NCBI GenBank assembly: GCA_903854795.1
Contig: CAINXF010000160.1
Location: 1-14,715, forward strand
Direction: 5' to 3'
Length of the DNA: 14,715 nt
Source of the DNA: Candidatus Kerfeldbacteria bacterium
GTDB taxonomy: Bacteria; Patescibacteriota; Patescibacteriia; SBBC01
Of the stretch, positions 5,501 through 12,788 are shown one piece after another (positions within the stretch are counted from its first letter, which is position 1; each line of letters starts with the position of its first letter). A model generated the notes under the pieces. It saw only the letters and a list, made by a program, of their open reading frames with translations, searched no databases and had not been told where the DNA came from. The translations under genes were made by a program, and so were the position numbers.

Positions 5501-5666
5501 GAAGGCGAGCAAGGTGGTTATGAAGAGCAACCTCCTGAAGGTGACGTTCACAACGAAATCGCTCAAGTCCGGAAATCAGACGTTGACCGTGACGAACGGC
5601 AACGGTCGAACGGCTAGCGTCGTCAAGAAGTTGACCGTCAAAGGCACGAACATTTCGATCAAATAG
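2580..5666 (+). CDS. Large secreted protein of carboxypeptidase-regulatory-like repeats with an IPT/TIG-like end
   Basis: A 1028-residue secreted or surface protein. Residues 1-35 form a Sec signal peptide: Arg8 and Arg9, a hydrophobic core from about 13 to 33, and probable cleavage after Val-Phe-Ala35. About eight beta modules of roughly 70-110 residues follow, many opening with patterns such as GTVTDALGVAIKGAVVSI and closing with GTYxxxVxxGTW-like turns. This is the signature of CarboxypepD_reg/Cna-B-like folds. Residues of about 800-935 form a different beta domain (FSADQGGTVSLPDGASVTMP to ISTTHLTKFSV). The last 85 or so residues resemble an IPT/TIG immunoglobulin-like domain. The protein contains no cysteine. 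No LPXTG motif, C-terminal membrane span or enzymatic motif is visible, so a structural or adhesive role is inferred. A strong promoter drives it and a hairpin ends it, so it is transcribed alone. Confidence 0.85.
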   Translation: MLYNMHVRRGWYAVTTGVLLFTIAFSMPSIVAVFADSAVVQGTVTRQDGTGVVGATVQLHTPDGVFSVDTTTNASGQFSFSNALTTGTHYVVEPRALDGYNRVGGQDANNFIYQSGDATRTIDFSLTQAVKQVSGKVVDTQGNLITDADVIFTPYNIPNVQSVGVHTTSDGTYHTMLVGGSWFMQASVNLSDTNFTQHWINEQPQYRIDLKNDLSVETVTHDFQVTPATGKVTVQLLNSDGSKLTTSDFIADIDFRRADGVGTTRKVRASDSVVSVYLTPGIYSISAYHNDLVGKSFDPAKTTFAMTENGDVDLGTIQAMVNSAHLKGTVTDAIGRATSNVHIVALRDGGAERVSVNSLSDGSFDLTVGPGTWNIGLDGVDMTHTQMAPVIATVVNGQTVTGLKIMIKNYDRTVSGNVVSAAGTVINDYVGSAYVRTSDKRARVSAPVVNGTFSISYSSADIPGPTDVIGVEAADNSPYTGGREAKLTINGRTASKNITVKPFDAMLKGTLTLEYTKTAAINVGSPIDIEAVDESGNYTSATVGADGSYSLPLAAGTWYYDYSILHPEETAGLLNTPAGQNSVTIKSGQTIVRNLTVREGRNTINGTVTDALGVAIKGAVVSIDNRSSLEDKADTKGVQIISTTVNTDENGTYAARVPDGTYMISVGDTPAVTASQIAPDSKSVTVSGGATVTKNLAFENANATIKGKVTLNNKTDGYGTITAYSDNGKQESASVAKNGTYSIPVTSGDVWHVVATDLQGKNLLESEVKDVTTKKGTNTVNVSLNDTGVDVPGPVTKTFSADQGGTVSLPDGASVTMPPFAIDVTGTVSVTVSPTIDLDRTTLSAPATIGYEVKAINGSGQEVKQLNKPAEVTVPYNQTVAEQNGLIEGRLEPTYFDPQTQTWATAGASGLVDTKNNVATISTTHLTKFSVTGTTKPLPKITNVSSKTATAATVTIEIAGKNFVGKPKVSFGSAKASKVVMKSNLLKVTFTTKSLKSGNQTLTVTNGNGRTASVVKKLTVKGTNISIK

Positions 5667-5732: not shown

Positions 5733-6350
5733 TTAGAGGATCAGGACGGCGGCCGCGATGATGCAGGTCCACTGGCCGTTTTTGTCGCCGAGCGCCGACT
5801 GTGTGATGTTCGTCGTTTCGACGATCTTGCCGGACATCTTGTAGATCTTTTCACGTTCGTCCCAGTCGGTGTCGAGGTTGAAAGTGATGCCCAGGGTCGA
5901 CGCGAGCATCGATGCCGCGAGGTCTTCAGCATACTCGCCAGCCTTTTCCTCGGTCTGGCCGTAGGTGTGGTGTTCTGACAGGTAGCCGTACATGTTCGCC
6001 TTGTCCGTCGGTCGGGCGAGGCCGATCGATGACGCCATGAGCCGATTTGGCTCGTTCGTCTCGTTTCGTGCCATGACGCAGAATACGACCTGGCCTGGCG
6101 AGAGGCGCTTCAGGCCCTCTTCGCGCGAAATCCGTTTGCAGGATGGTGGAAAGATGCTCGAGACGTACACGAGGTTGAACCGCTCGATGCCCGCATCGCG
6201 GAGCGCAGCCTCGAATGACGCCAGTTTCTCGCGGTGTCGGCCGACACCCTTGGTGAAGAACATCATCCGCGGCACGAAGAAACCCGATTGGACCTCGACT
6301 GGCTCGGCCGGGATGATCGGCTGAGGCGCATGGTTGTTATTTTGTGACAT
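5733..6350 (-). CDS. pdaD: Pyruvoyl-dependent arginine decarboxylase
   Basis: A 205-residue proenzyme of the PvlArgDC family, which decarboxylates arginine to agmatine, the first step of polyamine synthesis by that route. Family members cleave themselves between two serines, turning the second into the catalytic pyruvoyl group. The site is visible as VYVSSIFPP with the Ser64-Ser65 bond, matching the Ser-Ser-Ile-x-Pro-Pro motif of the archaeal enzyme. Residues 24-60 give the small beta chain ([20 protein letters not shown], then [12 protein letters not shown]). The rest is the alpha chain, with AEDLAASML and a hydrophobic C-terminus ([10 protein letters not shown]). The family runs about 150-200 residues, so the length is normal. 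The protein begins with a polar, proline-rich extension of about 22 residues. It has its own promoter. No agmatinase or aminopropyltransferase gene is in the window, so the fate of agmatine is unknown. Confidence 0.93.
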
Positions 6351-6441: not shown

Positions 6442-6978
6442 TTATCGTACGTCGACCGGAGGTCTGCCATGGTCATTCCATTCGACGTAAGCCTGAAGCA
6501 CGGGCAGTTGGAGCGAAAAGAACTGTTCTTGGTGGTCGGTGAGCATAGTTTTGAGCTTTGGCACGGTGACCCAGTGTGGATCCTTCGATTCTTCGGGATT
6601 CGCTTTTGGCGTACCGGTCACGCAACAGAGAAACACAAATCCGACCCATGGAAGGCCGTTATTGGTCTTAAGCGCCTGCTGACACATGAAAGGCCGGAAC
6701 ACGAACGAGGCATCTTGTGGCGAAGGTGAAGCGATCGAGTCGTGCTAGTCCTGCTGGAATGACATGATGGTGAGCCCTGATTCTTCCAAAACCTCGCGTG
6801 TTATCGCATCGTATACTGATTCGTACGCACGGAGCCCGCCAGCCGGGATTTCTAGAAGACCGGAATGTGTCGGACTCGTTTTCGGTTTCCAACGGGTTTG
6901 GAGAAACAGCGCGACCACACCATCTTCGTTGCGCTCAAGGAGCGCCGAAACAATGGGTATTGCAAGTTGTTCATTCAT
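6442..6978 (-). pseudogene. Nudix hydrolase broken by an in-frame amber codon
   Basis: From the ATG at 6978 the frame encodes 77 residues (MNEQLAIPIVSALL onward), reaches TAG at 6745-6747, and then continues in the same frame for 100 more coherent residues to TAA at 6442-6444. The whole 178-codon frame fits a Nudix hydrolase. Residues 47-68 form a perfect Nudix box (GX5EX7REUXEEXG): Gly47, Glu53, Arg61, Glu62, Glu65, Glu66, Gly68. The downstream half reads like the rest of the fold (LPWVGFVFLCCVTG). One point mutation therefore separates it from an intact gene. The family cleaves nucleoside diphosphates linked to another moiety; the substrate is unknown. Its ATG overlaps the stop of the methyltransferase pseudogene upstream (ATGAATGA), a sign of former translational coupling. 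The first 77 residues lack the C-terminal half of the fold and are probably inactive. Confidence 0.75.
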
Positions 6979-7627
6979 GAAGTTGTGCGATAAAGTGGAT
7001 AAAGTGTGTTTCAATATCCCGCCATTGTTTGATCGTCCTCCCCATATCGACGAGCCGCAGGTTAAGTTTATCAATAATATTGTGTTGTATGTATTCCTCG
7101 TCCCATACGCGACGGAGGTGACCATCATCGTCCATTCTTAAATTCGGCGCAACCTCGATTCCACGAGCGACGCGGGGATCGTCCGAAGGCTTTCCCTGCA
7201 TCATGAGATATCCGGTTTCTTTGAGCGACGGAAGAAGCGTCGTTAAAAAGCGCTCGAGATCTTCGTCTTAAAGATGGAGCGAAGACCGGGAATAGAAGGC
7301 ATTAAAAAGTATGAGACGCCATTATTGGGAGATGCTCGGCATCTGCAACTACTGGATGTAGCAGGTCGTTTGTGCCGTCTCGTTGTGCCGCTGCCATTAA
7401 TTGCGACAGTGCGACTTGAGAAAAATCGAGCGCCACTACTTCGGCGTGCTTCTTGCGTGCAAAGAACCGCACATCGCGGCCGTTTGCCGCGCCGAGCTCG
7501 AGGACGCTTCTGTTCTCGGGAATGAGCGGAAGACAACGTTCAGCAAAAAGGTTTGGGCGTGCTTCAAGTTCATTAAATTCCCCCTCGCGTTCCAGAATTG
7601 TTGCTGGTCAGGAACTCCTTCTTTCAT
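6971..7627 (-). pseudogene. Class I SAM-dependent methyltransferase, multiply disrupted
   Basis: Piecing the minus-strand frames together recovers a coherent protein of about 218 residues. From ATG at 7627 the frame gives MKEGVPDQQQFWNARGN and KHAQT. Near 7545-7555 it shifts into a second frame encoding FAERCLPLIPENRSVLELG, the SAM motif I (LELGAANGRDVRFFA), the motif II acidic strand (VVALDFS) and a VVADAEHLPIM strand. Near 7304-7310 it shifts back to the first frame (FNAFYSRSSLHL), meets TAA, and continues DEDLERFLTTLLPSLKETGY through to TGA at 6971-6973. Both shifts lie at runs of five A (plus strand) and they compensate each other. The family would be a Methyltransf_11/TehB-like small-molecule or RNA methyltransferase. 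It was the first gene of a coupled pair with the Nudix pseudogene. Two shifts and a stop make an assembly error alone unlikely. Confidence 0.75.
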
Positions 7628-7862
7628 GTATGTCCGTTACAATGATAATTATGACGTTAAGTATACAGAAAGAAGCTCTGCTGGGTACTCGGGGTACATC
7701 ATATGATAATAGAAATATCAGACGAAATATTGTTTTGTGAAGCGGTGTGAAATATCCAGGCACCATGTCATGACCAGTAGTAACATGGAAAATCGACCGG
7801 AAGCCTAATAATACAGAGCGTCATTGCACGTTTCGGGTCGGCTTATTATGCGAGACGCCTTG
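7628..7862. other. Divergent intergenic region
   Basis: An AT-rich stretch between the decayed minus-strand operon and the plus-strand nucleotide cluster; no gene is supported here. GAAATAT occurs three times in direct orientation (7712-7718, 7724-7730, 7749-7755), spaced by 12 and 25 bases, and ATCATATGAT (near 7698-7707) is a perfect palindrome. On the minus strand TATCAT (7642-7647) could be the -10 of the dead methyltransferase gene. Confidence 0.35.
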
Positions 7863-7871
7863 TGCTATCAT
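7863..7871 (+). promoter_or_regulatory. Extended -10 promoter, leaderless start
   Basis: TG-C-TATCAT (TG at 7863-7864, hexamer 7866-7871) is an extended -10, and the ATG at 7878 lies seven bases past the hexamer. This is the same geometry as the glycosyltransferase gene, again predicting a leaderless transcript. Confidence 0.5.
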
Positions 7872-7877
7872 ATGTGC

Positions 7878-8324
7878 ATGAAAGTCTTCTTCACGGCCTC
7901 ATCATCAGGTAGTCAAAAGGCGCATAGGGAGAATTATTTGCAGATTCTCGAGATATTGCAGTCGTTATCGCACAAGATAACAAATCCTTACTACGCCGCA
8001 ACGATCAAAGAAGACGGGCATGCTGATGGCGATGTCGTGCAAACCGACGATGTCTCCGACGCGCTACGGAAACGGATAGCCTACTCCGATTGCGTCATTG
8101 CCGAGATAACGGTACCATCAATCTCGTTAGGCATACAGATCGAGTATGCCCTTAACAAAAAGATACGCGTGTTATGTCTCTACAAGAAGGGTTGCAACGG
8201 GGATTTGCCGCTCATGGTGCGTGATGATAGGAATCCTCGGCTGTTCAAGGAGGATTATACGAGCGAGAGCGTCGCCGGTTTAATAAAAAAGTTCATTTCC
8301 CAAGTTCCTGGCAGTAGCACGTGA
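7878..8324 (+). CDS. DNPH1/RCL-like nucleotide N-glycosidase homologue (NDT superfamily)
   Basis: A 148-residue member of the nucleoside 2-deoxyribosyltransferase superfamily, closest in pattern to DNPH1 (RCL), which splits deoxynucleoside 5'-monophosphates, classically dGMP, into base and deoxyribose 5-phosphate. It opens with the strand MKVFFTASSSGS. The core reads SDCVIAEITVPS and then LNKKIRVLCLYKK, matching human DNPH1 (ADVVVAEVTQPS, then NKRILCLFR) without gaps. Oddly, at the position of the family's catalytic Glu (GYE in DNPH1) this protein has Gln (LGIQIEYA), with a Glu two residues later. It may use that Glu, have another activity, or only bind nucleotides. The ATG at 7878 is chosen over one at 7824 because the fold begins there and an extended -10 precedes it. 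It is separated from the next gene by 205 bases. Confidence 0.75.
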   Translation: MKVFFTASSSGSQKAHRENYLQILEILQSLSHKITNPYYAATIKEDGHADGDVVQTDDVSDALRKRIAYSDCVIAEITVPSISLGIQIEYALNKKIRVLCLYKKGCNGDLPLMVRDDRNPRLFKEDYTSESVAGLIKKFISQVPGSST

Positions 8325-8529
8325 ACCTCAGGTGTAGTGGTTATACACGAGGCCCGCGTCTTTCGAGTGTGTCGAGAAAGAAAAATATTTATACATCAGA
8401 CACTGTGAGACAACTTTGGCGAGAACAATCAGGGTCGGACACTAGGGTCTGTAGTTTGACCTTCATACCGTACAATCTGTGCAGGCCGACCGTAATGCTT
8501 CGATTATTCGATCGTCGTTAACGGGCATT

Positions 8530-9156
8530 ATGAAAAAAACGAACTTCCACGTTGAAAGGTCGCTTCTGGGTACACCGGGGGTCGTTAACTATTCCAGACA
8601 TAAATCGGTCGAAGTGAAACCCGGCGTGTTCTCACCGATTTACATCAACCTCAAGAACACACTTCCTAGTTATGAAGTGCGGCATTTCTTTGTCAGGAAA
8701 ATGTCCGAAATCATCGGTGACGAGCCTGACTACATTTGTGGCATCGAAAGTGGCGGCACGTACTACGCCGCTGCCGTGGCAGATACCCTCATCCGTCCGG
8801 TCATTCTGTATCGGAAAGAGAGGAAGGGGTACAACGACAAGAGAATGCTCGTCGGTATGACGCCGACAAAAGGATCCGTGGTGGCGGTCATCGACGACGT
8901 GTTCGCAACGGGTGCAACGGTGTCCGGTGTCGTCTGCTTTTTCAGGAGCATAGGTTGCACCGTGCGCCTATATTCCATCTTCAGTTACGGTTTTGAAAAG
9001 GAGATCGGCAAGAAGTTAGGCGTTGAGGCGCACTCGATGGCGAACTGCAAGGATCTTTGCAAAGTGGCGCTGCAAGAAAAAATCTTCACCAAAAATGACG
9101 TTAAATGTATTGCAAAGCACGTGTTGACCTACGGTGATTATTTGAGGAAATGCTAG
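8530..9156 (+). CDS. Orotate-phosphoribosyltransferase-like PRTase
   Basis: A 208-residue type I phosphoribosyltransferase, which joins a free base to PRPP to give a nucleoside 5'-monophosphate. The PRPP loop is clear: VVAVIDDVFATGAT with Asp122, Asp123 and the ATGAT loop at 126-130. The N-terminal part (KPGVFSPIYINLKN) and the flexible-loop region around Tyr94-Tyr101 (YRKERKGY) follow the orotate enzyme (PyrE). The base is uncertain: no other pyrimidine gene is nearby, and GuaA follows directly, so xanthine or another purine is an alternative. ATG at 8530 is preferred to an upstream GTG at 8479 because homology begins there. A TACAAT at 8471-8476 may be its -10. It starts the five-gene operon, and its end (AAATGCTAG) overlaps the first possible GuaA start. 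The upstream gap 8325-8529 holds no convincing gene. Confidence 0.82.
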   Translation: MKKTNFHVERSLLGTPGVVNYSRHKSVEVKPGVFSPIYINLKNTLPSYEVRHFFVRKMSEIIGDEPDYICGIESGGTYYAAAVADTLIRPVILYRKERKGYNDKRMLVGMTPTKGSVVAVIDDVFATGATVSGVVCFFRSIGCTVRLYSIFSYGFEKEIGKKLGVEAHSMANCKDLCKVALQEKIFTKNDVKCIAKHVLTYGDYLRKC

Positions 9157-9158
9157 CC

Positions 9159-10679
9159 ATGTTCATCATCCTTGATTTCGGAAGTCAGTATACCCATTTG
9201 ATCAAGGCATCGCTCGGAAAGCTTGGGTTTTCGTCCGTCATCCTTCCAGGCGACGAACGAGCTAAGCTGCATTCGGTTGAACGCTTGGATGGCATCATTT
9301 TTTCGGGCGGCGCATCCTCGGTCTATGATGGGAATATTCGGTTCGATGCAAGATGGCTCGAGCAGGGTGTCCCCATATTGGGCATTTGCTTTGGCCACCA
9401 ACTACTCGCACGCGCGACTGGAGGAAAGGTGAAGAAGATTAGCTCTGAATTCGGAAGAGCGACCTTGAAGGTGAGTAGTGGCAACGATCTGCTCAACGGA
9501 TTGCCGAAAAGGTTCTCCGTGTGGATGAGCCATCGTGATTCGGTCGATACGCTTCCTAAGGGTTTTTCAACGTCCGCGACTAGCGATTACTCAAGTTGCG
9601 CGGTGTTCCAGAACGTCAAGAGGAAAATGTACGGACTTCAATTTCATCCCGAAGTCTCGAACACAGAACATGGTCAACAAATTCTTAAGAACTTCTGTGT
9701 GAGGATCTGTGGGGCACGCGCGGGAACACCATGGAGCCCACGCGATTTCATCGGTTTAAAAGTGAAAGAGGTCCGAGAGCGGGTCGGCGGTGAAAAAGTC
9801 ATCTTTGGCCTTTCTGGCGGCGTCGACTCGTTGACCATGGCCGCATTGTTGCGGAAGGCATTACCGCGCAGGCAGCTTAAGGCCGTGTACATCGATACCG
9901 GCCTCATGCCCGATGTGACGATTAACGAGGTCATGGGGTTCTGTACGCGGATGGACATTCCATTGAAGGTGCTGAAGTCGCAGAAACAGTTTTTTGAATG
10001 CCTCGCCGGTATCGAGCATCCGACCGAGAAGGGTATGGCGATAGGGAAGGAATTCATCGATGAGTTCGAGGGATACGCGCGGACGTTCGGCGCCACGTTC
10101 TTCGCGCAAGGAACGATCTGGTCGGACGTGGTCGAGAGCGGTGTGACGAAGTTCTCTTCAAGGATAAAACCGCATCATAACGTGGGTGGGCTTCCGAAGA
10201 AACTTAATTTCAAGTTGCTCGAGCCGCTGCGGGAACTGTTCAAGAACCAGGTCCGTGAGGTCGCTGAGGAATTTGATCTACCGGGCTGGGTGGTTCGGAA
10301 AAAAGTTTTCCCCGGGCCGGGGTTTGCGATCCGCGTGCAGGGCGAGGTGACGCCTGCAAAGGTGGCACTCGTGCGGAAAGCGACCAAGATCATCGAAGAT
10401 GTCATCGAACGTTCCAGCATCAAGAACAAGATATGGATGGCGTTCGCGATCCTGATCGACGTGCCCAGTCTGGGAGTGAAAGGCGACGAACATGTCGAGA
10501 ACGAACACGCGATCGTCGTGCGGGTGGTGGAGTCGAAGAATTCGATGACTGCCAATTTTTCCAGGATAGTCATGCCTTATCTGCCCGAGATCTCAAAGAG
10601 GATCACTGACGAACTCGATATCGGAAGGCTCGTATACGACATCACCGATAAGCCACCGGCCACAATAGAATGGCAATAG
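9159..10679 (+). CDS. guaA: GMP synthase (glutamine-hydrolysing)
   Basis: A 506-residue GMP synthase, which converts XMP, ATP and glutamine to GMP in the cytoplasm. Residues 1 to about 190 are the class I glutamine amidotransferase domain, with Cys77 in LGICFGHQ and the His163/Glu165 pair in LQFHPEV. The ATP-pyrophosphatase domain follows, with the PP-loop SGGVDS at 219-224. The C-terminal dimerisation/XMP domain includes HHNVGGLPKK, FPGPGFAIRV and ends KPPATIEWQ. Length is close to the E. coli protein (525). Divergences are visible: the usual GDxRxY is GDEHVENEH, and DxMTA is NSMTA. ATG at 9159 is chosen over 9150 because GAGG at 9144-9147 is too close to the latter. The 9150 start would add three residues and overlap the PRTase stop. 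The kinase start lies inside the last codons of this gene. Confidence 0.93.
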   Translation: MFIILDFGSQYTHLIKASLGKLGFSSVILPGDERAKLHSVERLDGIIFSGGASSVYDGNIRFDARWLEQGVPILGICFGHQLLARATGGKVKKISSEFGRATLKVSSGNDLLNGLPKRFSVWMSHRDSVDTLPKGFSTSATSDYSSCAVFQNVKRKMYGLQFHPEVSNTEHGQQILKNFCVRICGARAGTPWSPRDFIGLKVKEVRERVGGEKVIFGLSGGVDSLTMAALLRKALPRRQLKAVYIDTGLMPDVTINEVMGFCTRMDIPLKVLKSQKQFFECLAGIEHPTEKGMAIGKEFIDEFEGYARTFGATFFAQGTIWSDVVESGVTKFSSRIKPHHNVGGLPKKLNFKLLEPLRELFKNQVREVAEEFDLPGWVVRKKVFPGPGFAIRVQGEVTPAKVALVRKATKIIEDVIERSSIKNKIWMAFAILIDVPSLGVKGDEHVENEHAIVVRVVESKNSMTANFSRIVMPYLPEISKRITDELDIGRLVYDITDKPPATIEWQ

Positions 10680-11305
10680 CACGCGCGCCAGTGATACCGA
10701 TGGTTGTTCCCATACCAAAGGCGCATTTCAGCCTTGAAGGGATTGACGGTGTCGGGAAGACCACGCAACTGTTAAGGTTAGAAAAAGAACTGACCCTGAA
10801 AGGTATTCCCGTTCAGATAGGCAGGTGCCCGAGCGCCACCCCGGTGGGTGAGTTTCTGCGCAGTAACATGGGCGTTCTCGGAACGTGGGAACGTAACACG
10901 CTGTTCCTCATGGACATGATCGAAACGTTGCGCACTAATGATAGCAGTGGAAAAATATTACTGTGGGACAGATATAAGGATTCAAATCGAGTGGCAAACA
11001 AGGACATGACGTTGCAAGATGCTGAGGCGTCGGTCGCGTGTTTACCGGAGACCACGAGGACGTTCTTACTAGATCTCGATCCGGAGACAATCATCGTCGC
11101 CCGCAAGGAATCGCTACATGGGGATTCGCTCGATCTAGAATGGCAGAGAGAGAAAAGGAGGCGGTACCTTCGCTTGGCAGAACGGGATCATCAAAGGGTC
11201 GTAGTTATCGATGCTGCGATGAAAGAGAGCGACATCACCACGCGCATCGTCCGATGCATTATTGAGGACCTTAAAAAATTTGACGCGTTTGATAAAAGTA
11301 TTTGA
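10670..11305 (+). CDS. Thymidylate-kinase-like P-loop nucleotide kinase
   Basis: A 211-residue kinase of the thymidylate kinase superfamily, which would phosphorylate a nucleoside monophosphate with ATP. The P-loop GIDGVGKT is at residues 24-31, and the DRY motif (WDRYKDS) is at 100-102. LLDLDPE and a basic LID-like helix (QREKRRRYLRLAERD) follow in family order. The acceptor pocket is altered. The family's GGTP segment reads SATP (55-58). The LFAADR segment whose Arg contacts dTMP reads LFLMDM (78-83). The SxAYQ stretch reads SNRVAN (105-110). dTMP is therefore doubtful, and GMP or a modified nucleotide is conceivable given the neighbour. The ATG at 10670 overlaps the last 10 bases of guaA. 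A start at 10700 (MVVPIPKAHFS) would better match the family's usual N-terminus, and neither has a clear ribosome binding site. Confidence 0.82.
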   Translation: MAIARAPVIPMVVPIPKAHFSLEGIDGVGKTTQLLRLEKELTLKGIPVQIGRCPSATPVGEFLRSNMGVLGTWERNTLFLMDMIETLRTNDSSGKILLWDRYKDSNRVANKDMTLQDAEASVACLPETTRTFLLDLDPETIIVARKESLHGDSLDLEWQREKRRRYLRLAERDHQRVVVIDAAMKESDITTRIVRCIIEDLKKFDAFDKSI

Positions 11306-11313
11306 ACTTCACC

Positions 11314-12006
11314 ATGGCAACAACATTCACCGATATCGATAGCGTAGGAAAAAGGTATCGTTTTTCAACGAAGTTGCCGATCATTGGAGACGAGGAGGGT
11401 GTATTACTCACGAGCTACCAGGCTGCGTCCGAACATACCGCAGCAAGAATCCTCGAAAAACTTGGCAAGGTGAATGTGTTCGAGATATGCAGCGGTGTGG
11501 GTGGTACAACGGTATTCCTGGCGAAGCGCATGGCGCATGTGTACGCATTGGACATCAATCCGGTACGGATCGAGGCGGCAAAGATCAACGCACGGACGTT
11601 CGACGTACTGACCAAGATCACGTATATCCAAGGTGACGCCCTCGACGACAAAATCATCGACCAACTGCGTGCCAAGGATATTGACGCAGTGGTGTCCGAC
11701 GTGGAATGGCGGGAAGACCTTTCACGGTCACTTTCCGAAACGACCCCGGACATCGACAAGACCATCCCAAATACGTCGGCTTTATATAGAAAGATGACAA
11801 CCGCGCTCACGCGTAACCTCATAATGCACATGGCCGCCAACACCGACAAACAGCAGTTGCGCCAGCTCGGCTCGTGCGAGATCGAGGAGATGACCTACCA
11901 AGGTCGCGTGAAATTCATCAACGTCTACTTCGGAGCATTAATCAATGCCGTTGGTGTGACGCGGTTCGATATGGACAACAGCGTAGACCAAACGCAGTTG
12001 TCATAG
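11314..12006 (+). CDS. TGS1-like (guanine-N2) methyltransferase
   Basis: A 230-residue SAM-dependent methyltransferase resembling trimethylguanosine synthase (TGS1, Methyltransf_15). That family methylates the exocyclic N2 of guanine, classically in RNA caps. Matching blocks in order are: GDEEGVLLTS (TGS1 FDxGIxLD); motif I at 57-64 with SGVGG (TGS1 CGVGG); LDINPVRIEAAKINA with Asp80 (TGS1 IDIDPVKIALARNNA); KITYIQGDAL with Asp108; and at the end KFINVYFGALI (TGS1 KTITAYFGDLI). Motif IV, normally SPPWGGP, is SDVEWRE at 128-134; the Trp seems kept but the Pro-Pro and Gly-Gly are lost. Substrate or activity may therefore differ. ATG at 11314 is chosen over an upstream TTG at 11302. It starts 8 bases after the kinase. 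A diverged RNA methyltransferase is the main alternative. Confidence 0.75.
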   Translation: MATTFTDIDSVGKRYRFSTKLPIIGDEEGVLLTSYQAASEHTAARILEKLGKVNVFEICSGVGGTTVFLAKRMAHVYALDINPVRIEAAKINARTFDVLTKITYIQGDALDDKIIDQLRAKDIDAVVSDVEWREDLSRSLSETTPDIDKTIPNTSALYRKMTTALTRNLIMHMAANTDKQQLRQLGSCEIEEMTYQGRVKFINVYFGALINAVGVTRFDMDNSVDQTQLS

Positions 12007-12022
12007 TAGAATAAGCTCACGT

Positions 12023-12466
12023 ATGGCAGACCTCGCAACGGACAAGACGCACCTGATACTCGTGAATGCTGTCGTCGAAAAAGATGGCAAGATCCTTGTT
12101 GCACAACGATCGTGGGAAGAAACCCATGAACCTGGGAAATGGACGATCCCAGGAGGAAAGGTCGAGCGGACAGCCGGAGACGTCTGGAACATTATCGAAG
12201 AAACTCTGAAAAAAGAGGTCATGGAAGAAACGGGTGTGGGCATCACCGACGATGCGCAGCTTTTGTCTAATAACACCTTTATCCGATCGACGGGTCAACA
12301 CGTCGTCGCGTTGATTTTCATGTGCCATTGGAAATCAGGTGCAGGCACGTCGTTGGAGGATACGATAGGTATCAAATGGATCACGCAGGAAGAACTTGGC
12401 CAAATGGAATTCGCCCCGAACGTCAAACACTACATTCAAAAAGGGTTCGACACGCTCAAAAAGTGA
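12023..12466 (+). CDS. Nudix hydrolase
   Basis: A 147-residue Nudix hydrolase, an Mg-dependent pyrophosphohydrolase acting on nucleoside diphosphates linked to another moiety, often for nucleotide sanitation or decapping. The start of the Nudix box is IPGGKVE at 42-48 and its end is KKEVMEETGV at 63-72, with the metal ligands Glu65, Glu68 and Glu69. The canonical Arg is Lys64. Between the two halves there are about seven extra residues (RTAGDVWNII, then EET), so the box does not fit GX5EX7REUXEEXGU exactly. The IPGGKVE pattern resembles MutT-like nucleotide hydrolases. It is the last gene of the operon, 16 bases after the methyltransferase, with no obvious ribosome binding site. It is not a copy of the decayed Nudix at 6442-6978, whose box is canonical. 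Confidence 0.88.
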   Translation: MADLATDKTHLILVNAVVEKDGKILVAQRSWEETHEPGKWTIPGGKVERTAGDVWNIIEETLKKEVMEETGVGITDDAQLLSNNTFIRSTGQHVVALIFMCHWKSGAGTSLEDTIGIKWITQEELGQMEFAPNVKHYIQKGFDTLKK

Positions 12467-12565: not shown

Positions 12566-12611
12566 AAGAAAATTCCCGGCCTAGCGGCTAGCCCGAGGAG
12601 GGCCCGCCGGG
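12566..12611 (-). terminator. Terminator of the tRNA-Lys transcript
   Basis: On the minus strand a GC-rich structure closed by CCCGGC/GCCGGG (12606-12611 with 12575-12580) is followed by AATTTTCTT (12566-12574). Inner small stems (GCCC/GGGC and CTAG/CTAG) fill the loop. The order, tRNA then hairpin then T tract, suits intrinsic termination. The rest of the 12467-12644 gap holds no supported gene. Confidence 0.6.
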
Positions 12612-12644
12612 CGGAACCGGGTCCGGAAATCATGGTATAAACCT

Positions 12645-12720
12645 TGGTGGGCACAGCAGGGCTCGAACCTGCGACCCGCTGCTTAAGAGGCAGCTGCTCT
12701 ACCAACTGAGCTATGTGCCC
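12645..12720 (-). tRNA. tRNA-Lys (anticodon CTT)
   Basis: Read on the minus strand, the 76 bases fold as a full cloverleaf: acceptor GGGCACA/TGTGCCC, D stem GCTC/GAGC, anticodon stem GCTGC/GCAGC with loop CTCTTAA, and T arm GCAGG-TTCGAGC-CCTGC. Bases 34-36 are CTT, which reads AAG (lysine). The discriminator is A and CCA is encoded. A five-base variable region is present, so it is a class I tRNA. Confidence 0.97.
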
Positions 12721-12788
12721 TCGTACCAATTCGAGGAGGAAAACATCGTTACTGTGAAGTGAGCTATCAGACCACGATAACGCCAGCT

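Follow-up and report, generated by a model that had tools for sequence, protein, structure and literature searches.

Organization of the locus

We analysed a stretch of 14,715 nucleotides from Candidatus Kerfeldbacteria bacterium (hereafter the window), which is the entire contig C160 of a 1.07 Mb genome, 97.6% complete and assembled in 211 contigs. The subject of this study is a packed run of five plus-strand genes at 8530..12466 (3.9 kb) encoding, in order, a phosphoribosyltransferase (PRTase) of the orotate PRTase (OPRT) type, a GuaA-type enzyme, a thymidylate kinase (TMPK)-like kinase, a PF09445 methyltransferase and a MutT-like Nudix hydrolase (Table 1). A sixth, weakly DNPH1-like gene stops 205 bases 5′ of the PRTase ATG and may be separate from the five-gene operon or transcript. 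The first-pass annotation had described six genes in one run, packed with overlaps or gaps of at most 16 bases from the PRTase onward; their families and the intactness of all six open reading frames (ORFs) were borne out, as was the tight packing. As argued below, we tentatively read the run as a compact base-to-nucleotide assembly operon that would turn a salvaged xanthine-like base into a nucleotide of the guanine type, a reading to which we give a probability slightly below one half (about 0.48).

Table 1. Genes and key codons of the locus (positions in the window)
Feature	Position	Strand	Basis
DNPH1/deoxyribosyltransferase-like protein, 148 aa	7878..8324	+	weak PF05014, structure-database match
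OPRT-type PRTase, divergent subfamily; candidate first step (base and phosphoribosyl pyrophosphate to ribotide)	8530..9156	+	profiles, AlphaFold fold
GuaA-type amidotransferase/ATP pyrophosphatase, altered site for xanthosine monophosphate; candidate second step (ribotide amination)	9150..10679	+	profile, alignment
Gly295 codon of GuaA	10032..10034	+	alignment
His448 codon of GuaA	10491..10493	+	alignment
Thymidylate-kinase-like P-loop nucleotide kinase; candidate third step	10670..11305	+	profiles, fold, residue alignment
PF09445 (TGS1-like) S-adenosylmethionine methyltransferase	11314..12006, alternative TTG start 11302	+	profile, motif
MutT-like Nudix hydrolase	12023..12466	+	profile

The spacing of the genes hinges on the choice of start codons. 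The PRTase ends at 9156 and GuaA starts at 9150, the usual GuaA start being the ATG at 9159. GuaA ends at 10679, with the kinase starting at 10670 or at the ATG at 10700. The kinase in turn ends at 11305, the methyltransferase starting at the TTG at 11302 or the ATG at 11314, and the methyltransferase end at 12006 is followed by the Nudix start at 12023. Between 7200 and 12800, neither promoter-like sites (3, shuffle mean 5.4) nor terminator-like sites (5, against 5.2 in shuffles) were enriched. A purine riboswitch upstream of the operon was rejected, since a search of that region matched no RNA family.

Catalytic motifs and recognition residues of the GuaA-type enzyme

The GuaA-type protein scored 546.8 bits with the full-length family model NF000848 (cut-off 400) and narrowly missed the C-terminal domain model TIGR00884 (324.5 versus 338.75). 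It was aligned with 45 homologues, made up of the 19 best of a class search and 26 of a phylum search at E <=1e-90. The glutamine amidotransferase triad is present (Cys80, His166 and Glu168), as are the SGGVDS loop at residues 222-227, the DxxES motif in the form DVVES, FPGPG and KPPATIEW. In the lid loop, IKPHHN, a Pro stands where 45/45 relatives have Ser or Thr; a lid-loop T387A substitution is described as nearly neutral in PMC10526850.

In the M. jannaschii enzyme, Arg102 contacts O6 of xanthine and is key to the distinction between xanthosine monophosphate (XMP) and other purine monophosphates; the phosphate of XMP is contacted by Arg249 of the adjacent chain (PMC10526850). We placed the equivalents of both residues by alignment with chain 6jp9_A, whose residue count confirms the two numbers. 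Arg102 aligned with Gly295 of the window protein, at a position that is Arg in all 45 relatives. Arg249 aligned with His448; here Arg was found in 34 of the 35 relatives aligned, His in one (L179, the sole other relative with this residue), and 10 were gapped. Arg254 and Glu292, each shared by 45/45 relatives, are replaced by Pro and Thr, respectively. The final Glu, equally invariant, has become Gln, a change whose importance is weakened by the nearly neutral effect of E555L in P. falciparum (PMC9312489). The domain interface is altered as well, in the alpha1 motif and in the alpha12 motif, which reads KNQVR for KD(D/E)V(K/R).

Overall, the protein departs from the consensus at 8 of 62 near-invariant columns, as compared to 3 of 62 for the next most deviant relative. 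When the protein and 34 homologues were placed in a tree rooted at the midpoint, its terminal branch was the longest of the 35 (0.987; median 0.314, next 0.683), and it clustered, with a support of 0.998, with five GuaA from other members of the phylum. By this branch and this grouping, it appears to descend, with fast evolution, from a GuaA of the phylum. With GMP synthetase (GuaA; PDB 2ywb, 6jp9) it has in common the order of the domains, the catalytic triad, the ATP-pyrophosphatase and lid loops and the C-terminal motif, whereas the equivalents of Arg102 and Arg249 are Gly and His, the Arg of GLxR is Pro and the alpha1/alpha12 interface motifs differ. XMP is considered the dedicated substrate of GMP synthetase.

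The phosphoribosyltransferase and the kinase

The PRTase passed the general family model PF00156 (30.9 bits, cut-off 26.3) and fell under the cut-off of every NCBIfam model that it matched, including TIGR00336 pyrE (61.0 versus 106.8). Its closest solved relatives by sequence are OPRTs. In its AlphaFold model (mean predicted local distance difference test score, pLDDT, 87), the first 30 Foldseek hits were OPRTs or UMP/orotidine monophosphate (OMP) synthases. The fold and overall sequence are shared with PyrE, but SPIYINLK replaces SPxYxDxR, VG replaces EG and DDVFATGAT replaces EDxxSTGGS. Asn40, Lys42 and Val108 occupy positions that are Asp, Arg and Glu, respectively, in 18/18 OPRT-like homologues. 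All three residues recur in one distant homologue, the PRTase of Patescibacteria bacterium BroJett019 (L128), which is 31% identical and carries the same subfamily residues. This was the only homologue found in a scan with two short patterns over 84,980 species, each represented by a single genome, a scan that misses relatives lacking the patterns and may omit records of the window's own genome. Unlike the window gene, the BroJett019 gene is solitary, with no adjoining window-type GuaA, kinase or methyltransferase.

The kinase likewise passed its broad family model (PF02223, 54.2 bits, cut-off 27) and stayed under the dTMP kinase model TIGR00041 (49.9 versus 83.25). Thymidylate kinases are its nearest solved relatives by sequence and made up all 50 fold matches listed for its structural model (pLDDT 83.8). 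It has the P-loop together with Phe79, Arg101 and Asn106, which correspond by spacing to Phe70, Arg95 and Asn100 of M. tuberculosis TMPK. In that enzyme Arg74 hydrogen-bonds thymine, as reported in PMC3619541. The window kinase has Met83 at the counterpart, placed by motif spacing rather than by direct alignment with the M. tuberculosis enzyme, and the residue is Arg in 19/19 aligned Tmk homologues. Another, more canonical Tmk is encoded elsewhere in the same genome (G000:C7); it retains the Arg and falls just short of TIGR00041 (76.4 versus 83.25). The window kinase is therefore not needed for dTMP.

The first-pass annotation had claimed deviating key substrate positions in three of the six proteins, and for GuaA and the kinase this could be counted at Gly295, His448 and Met83. 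From these alignments, the acceptor sites of both enzymes look remodelled.

Gene neighbourhoods in other genomes

The neighbourhoods of 45 guaA loci were surveyed over up to ~1.5 kb per side, some flanks being ended by contig ends. IMP dehydrogenase (IMPDH) was found in 28, a deaminase in 15 and an Xpt-like PRTase in 2. A PRTase, kinase, methyltransferase or Nudix of the window type was the best match in 0/45, so that the survey suggested at first pass did not reveal co-occurrence of the families. The window shares a GuaA of the same family with the usual Patescibacteria gua cluster (IMPDH, deaminase, GuaA) and has neither the IMPDH nor the deaminase. The survey does not support conservation of the cluster, which is known in a single copy. 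Scattering of the genes in close relatives, named at first pass as a sign against a joint function, was not seen for the PRTase, which had no match (E 0.001) in nine same-family or same-order genomes; for GuaA, a second search (E 0.001), which listed five of those nine, gave no match in any of the five. Literature searches found no title or abstract describing the combination, which is no proof of its absence in print.

Both Xpt-like PRTase genes, from two other genomes of the phylum, lie immediately beside guaA. In one genome (G221; L170, 884-3675), the PRTase is followed by GuaA and then by a dNK-family kinase, an equal succession of steps drawn from different protein families; in the other (G251; L180, 37-3611), by GuaA and then IMPDH. 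The two Xpt-like PRTases score 71.6 and 76.3 bits with NF006671 (cut-off 177), hence no curated match. Both loci independently support the PRTase-GuaA link, and G221 also the placing of a kinase at the third step. In G251, since IMPDH lies beside guaA, the PRTase could feed IMP instead. A separate locus of another genome (L045, G044:C18, 4530-7996) holds three PRTase-fold genes, one above the PF00156 cut-off and two weaker, beside an APH-family gene.

Purine and pyrimidine enzymes elsewhere in the genome

Searches of the window's own genome covered its readable part: of 17 sampled contigs, all 7 shorter than 3 kb were N throughout (13,380 of 77,045 bases). PRPP (phosphoribosyl pyrophosphate) synthase was found (113.5 bits). 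In the readable part no IMPDH was above cut-off and neither OMP decarboxylase nor guanylate kinase was found, absences that could each be a gap; the lone IMPDH match, at 23.1 bits, is a nitronate-monooxygenase-family protein. In the nine same-family or same-order genomes, IMPDH exceeded the cut-off in 2, OMP decarboxylase in 4 and guanylate kinase in 0. On contig C113 (L139, G000:C113, 1014-2746), a purine nucleoside phosphorylase-like gene (PF01048, 82.7 bits) adjoins a second OPRT-like PRTase, whose top NCBIfam match, pyrE_Therm, is under cut-off.

Methyltransferase, Nudix hydrolase and DNPH1-like protein

The methyltransferase passed PF09445 (58.5 bits, cut-off 22) and reads SDVEW where TGS1 has SPPW. 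N2-guanine methylation of the TGS1 type, suggested at first pass, is not supported by this motif. Four other proteins, from three genomes of the phylum, have DPxW. No GuaA- or PRTase-like gene was found within the 13.7-16 kb read around the relatives L012, L013 and L014, nor around a further copy in G328. The Nudix protein passed PF00293 (51.6 bits, cut-off 21.1).

The DNPH1-like protein remained under the PF05014 cut-off (16.5 versus 28.8 bits), with a best PDB match at E 8.7e-6. A Gln is in register with the DNPH1 catalytic Glu, and the protein has SSSGS and no GSIRGG stretch. On these residues, the protein is probably not an active N-glycosidase, and the release step that the first-pass annotation had placed at the head of the pathway was rejected. 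Matches to this family occur in 51 of 379 genomes of the phylum, the window's own included. Gln in place of the catalytic Glu recurs in the homologues L189, L207 and L210 of the phylum; such proteins are perhaps ligand-binding rather than catalytic.

Base composition and surroundings of the operon

The GC content of the operon stretch is 0.508 as compared to 0.54-0.59 in 14 readable other contigs of the genome, and it runs at 0.46-0.50 across 7000-8500 of the window; both values hint at acquisition. An origin as prophage, plasmid or defence island was rejected, no relatives having been found in viral contigs. The PRTase had no relative in the phage records searched; among plasmid records it had 4 matches at 27-31% identity, of which 3 carry an orotate PRTase annotation. 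For GuaA there were 39 matching phage records, every one at <60% identity. The PADLOC matches of the methyltransferase to mad2 (60.3 bits, a little more than it scores with PF09445) and of the Nudix protein to PDC-S07 (62.8 bits) were read as general family similarity. Integration at the 3′ end of tRNA-Lys was also rejected: 12601-12725 shares no repeat of at least 13 bases with the remaining window, and a single shared 12-mer at 5567, outside the tRNA, was regarded as chance.

Upstream on the minus strand, a second Nudix gene (6442-7128) lies in two frames and is possibly frameshifted; 6745-7128 matches PF00293 positions 6-59, and 6442-6702 weakly matches positions 83-130, below cut-off. A pyruvoyl-dependent arginine decarboxylase at 5733-6350, on the same strand, exceeds its curated cut-off.

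A candidate salvage pathway and its alternatives

In the pathway that we favour, the OPRT-type PRTase would join PRPP to a free base of the oxo-purine kind, for which xanthine or a close analogue is the likeliest candidate. The GuaA-type enzyme would adenylate a ring carbonyl of the ribotide and swap in the amino group of glutamine, a mechanism suggested by its retained catalytic motifs, and the TMPK-like kinase would phosphorylate the aminated product. Neither IMPDH nor guanylate kinase would be needed for the guanine-type nucleotide that results from these steps. The methyltransferase and the Nudix hydrolase might act on the nucleotide or its triphosphate in an accessory or clean-up role, the most tentative part of the scheme. 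The enzyme order fits a passage from base to ribotide, aminated ribotide and diphosphate, which is the logic of rebuilding, aminating and phosphorylating put forward at first pass, with a partial parallel in G221 and G251. The gene packing, the GuaA motifs kept, the PRPP synthase, the lack of IMPDH, OMP decarboxylase and guanylate kinase in the readable genome and the presence of the other Tmk support this reading. We favour a working set with a shifted substrate because GuaA has its catalytic parts intact and recognition residues have changed in both GuaA and the kinase; the simplest substrate would remain xanthine or a near analogue. As in xanthine salvage by Xpt and GuaA, the PRTase would supply the ribotide of GuaA and bypass IMPDH, but here the PRTase is of the OPRT and not the Xpt type, GuaA is without the XMP-contact Arg residues and the kinase is of the TMPK type.

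Several results weigh against this pathway. The loss of the Arg to xanthine O6, now Gly295, and of the Arg to the XMP phosphate argues against plain XMP as the substrate and lowers the likelihood of simple xanthine-to-GMP salvage. In both sequence and predicted fold, the PRTase is close to orotate enzymes. No other genome with this gene set was found in the phylum and species-wide searches. The absences of IMPDH, OMP decarboxylase and guanylate kinase are provisional, and such absences are common in the lineage and hence not specific to the operon. Finally, given the phosphorylase-like and OPRT-like PRTase pair on C113, another base-salvage route may exist.

The same residues can be read differently. 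The operon might yield a non-canonical nucleotide, with the PRTase taking a non-xanthine base, the GuaA-like enzyme aminating it, the kinase activating it and the methyltransferase tailoring it; repurposed purine pathways in some nucleoside natural products offer an analogy. The deviant columns and long branch of GuaA, its missing Arg102 and Arg249 equivalents, Met83 of the kinase and the N40, K42 and V108 set of the PRTase speak for this possibility. We consider it doubtful, as the deviations may be drift or compensated XMP use, and L179 likewise has His at position 448. Its most explicit form is a nucleotide-analogue assembly line built from an OPRT-derived PRTase, a neofunctionalised GMP synthetase blind to XMP, a TMPK-derived kinase and a tailoring methyltransferase, and seems a shade less likely again. 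Alternatively, the genes could be neighbours with no shared pathway, or the GuaA-like gene could be under relaxed selection. The absence of a second copy of the cluster from the genomes searched, a low GC content that fits a foreign insert and the long GuaA branch are consistent with this. However, all ORFs are intact across 3.9 kb, PRTase-GuaA adjacency recurs in two genomes, and GuaA has retained its catalytic motifs, its changes falling on recognition and domain-interface residues, which makes such an explanation improbable. That ordinary enzymes, an orotate PRTase and a dTMP kinase, simply lie beside a GMP synthase and serve textbook synthesis appears very improbable: although OPRTs and thymidylate kinases are nearest by sequence and fold, both proteins are under the curated cut-offs, the GuaA recognition residues are missing, the genome has another Tmk and its readable part has no OMP decarboxylase.

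Microgenomatia are reported as lacking guanylate kinase (PMC9166423), a gap in their metabolism. Even the modest reading of xanthine-like base salvage would give Patescibacteria a route that turns a scavenged base into guanine nucleotides with neither IMPDH nor guanylate kinase. If true, a GuaA paralogue whose catalytic engine is intact and whose acceptor site is remodelled would add a new activity to the amidotransferases and offer a lead to an unknown metabolite. Were the bolder reading to hold, an ultra-small bacterium would be producing a non-canonical nucleotide from repurposed purine and pyrimidine enzymes.

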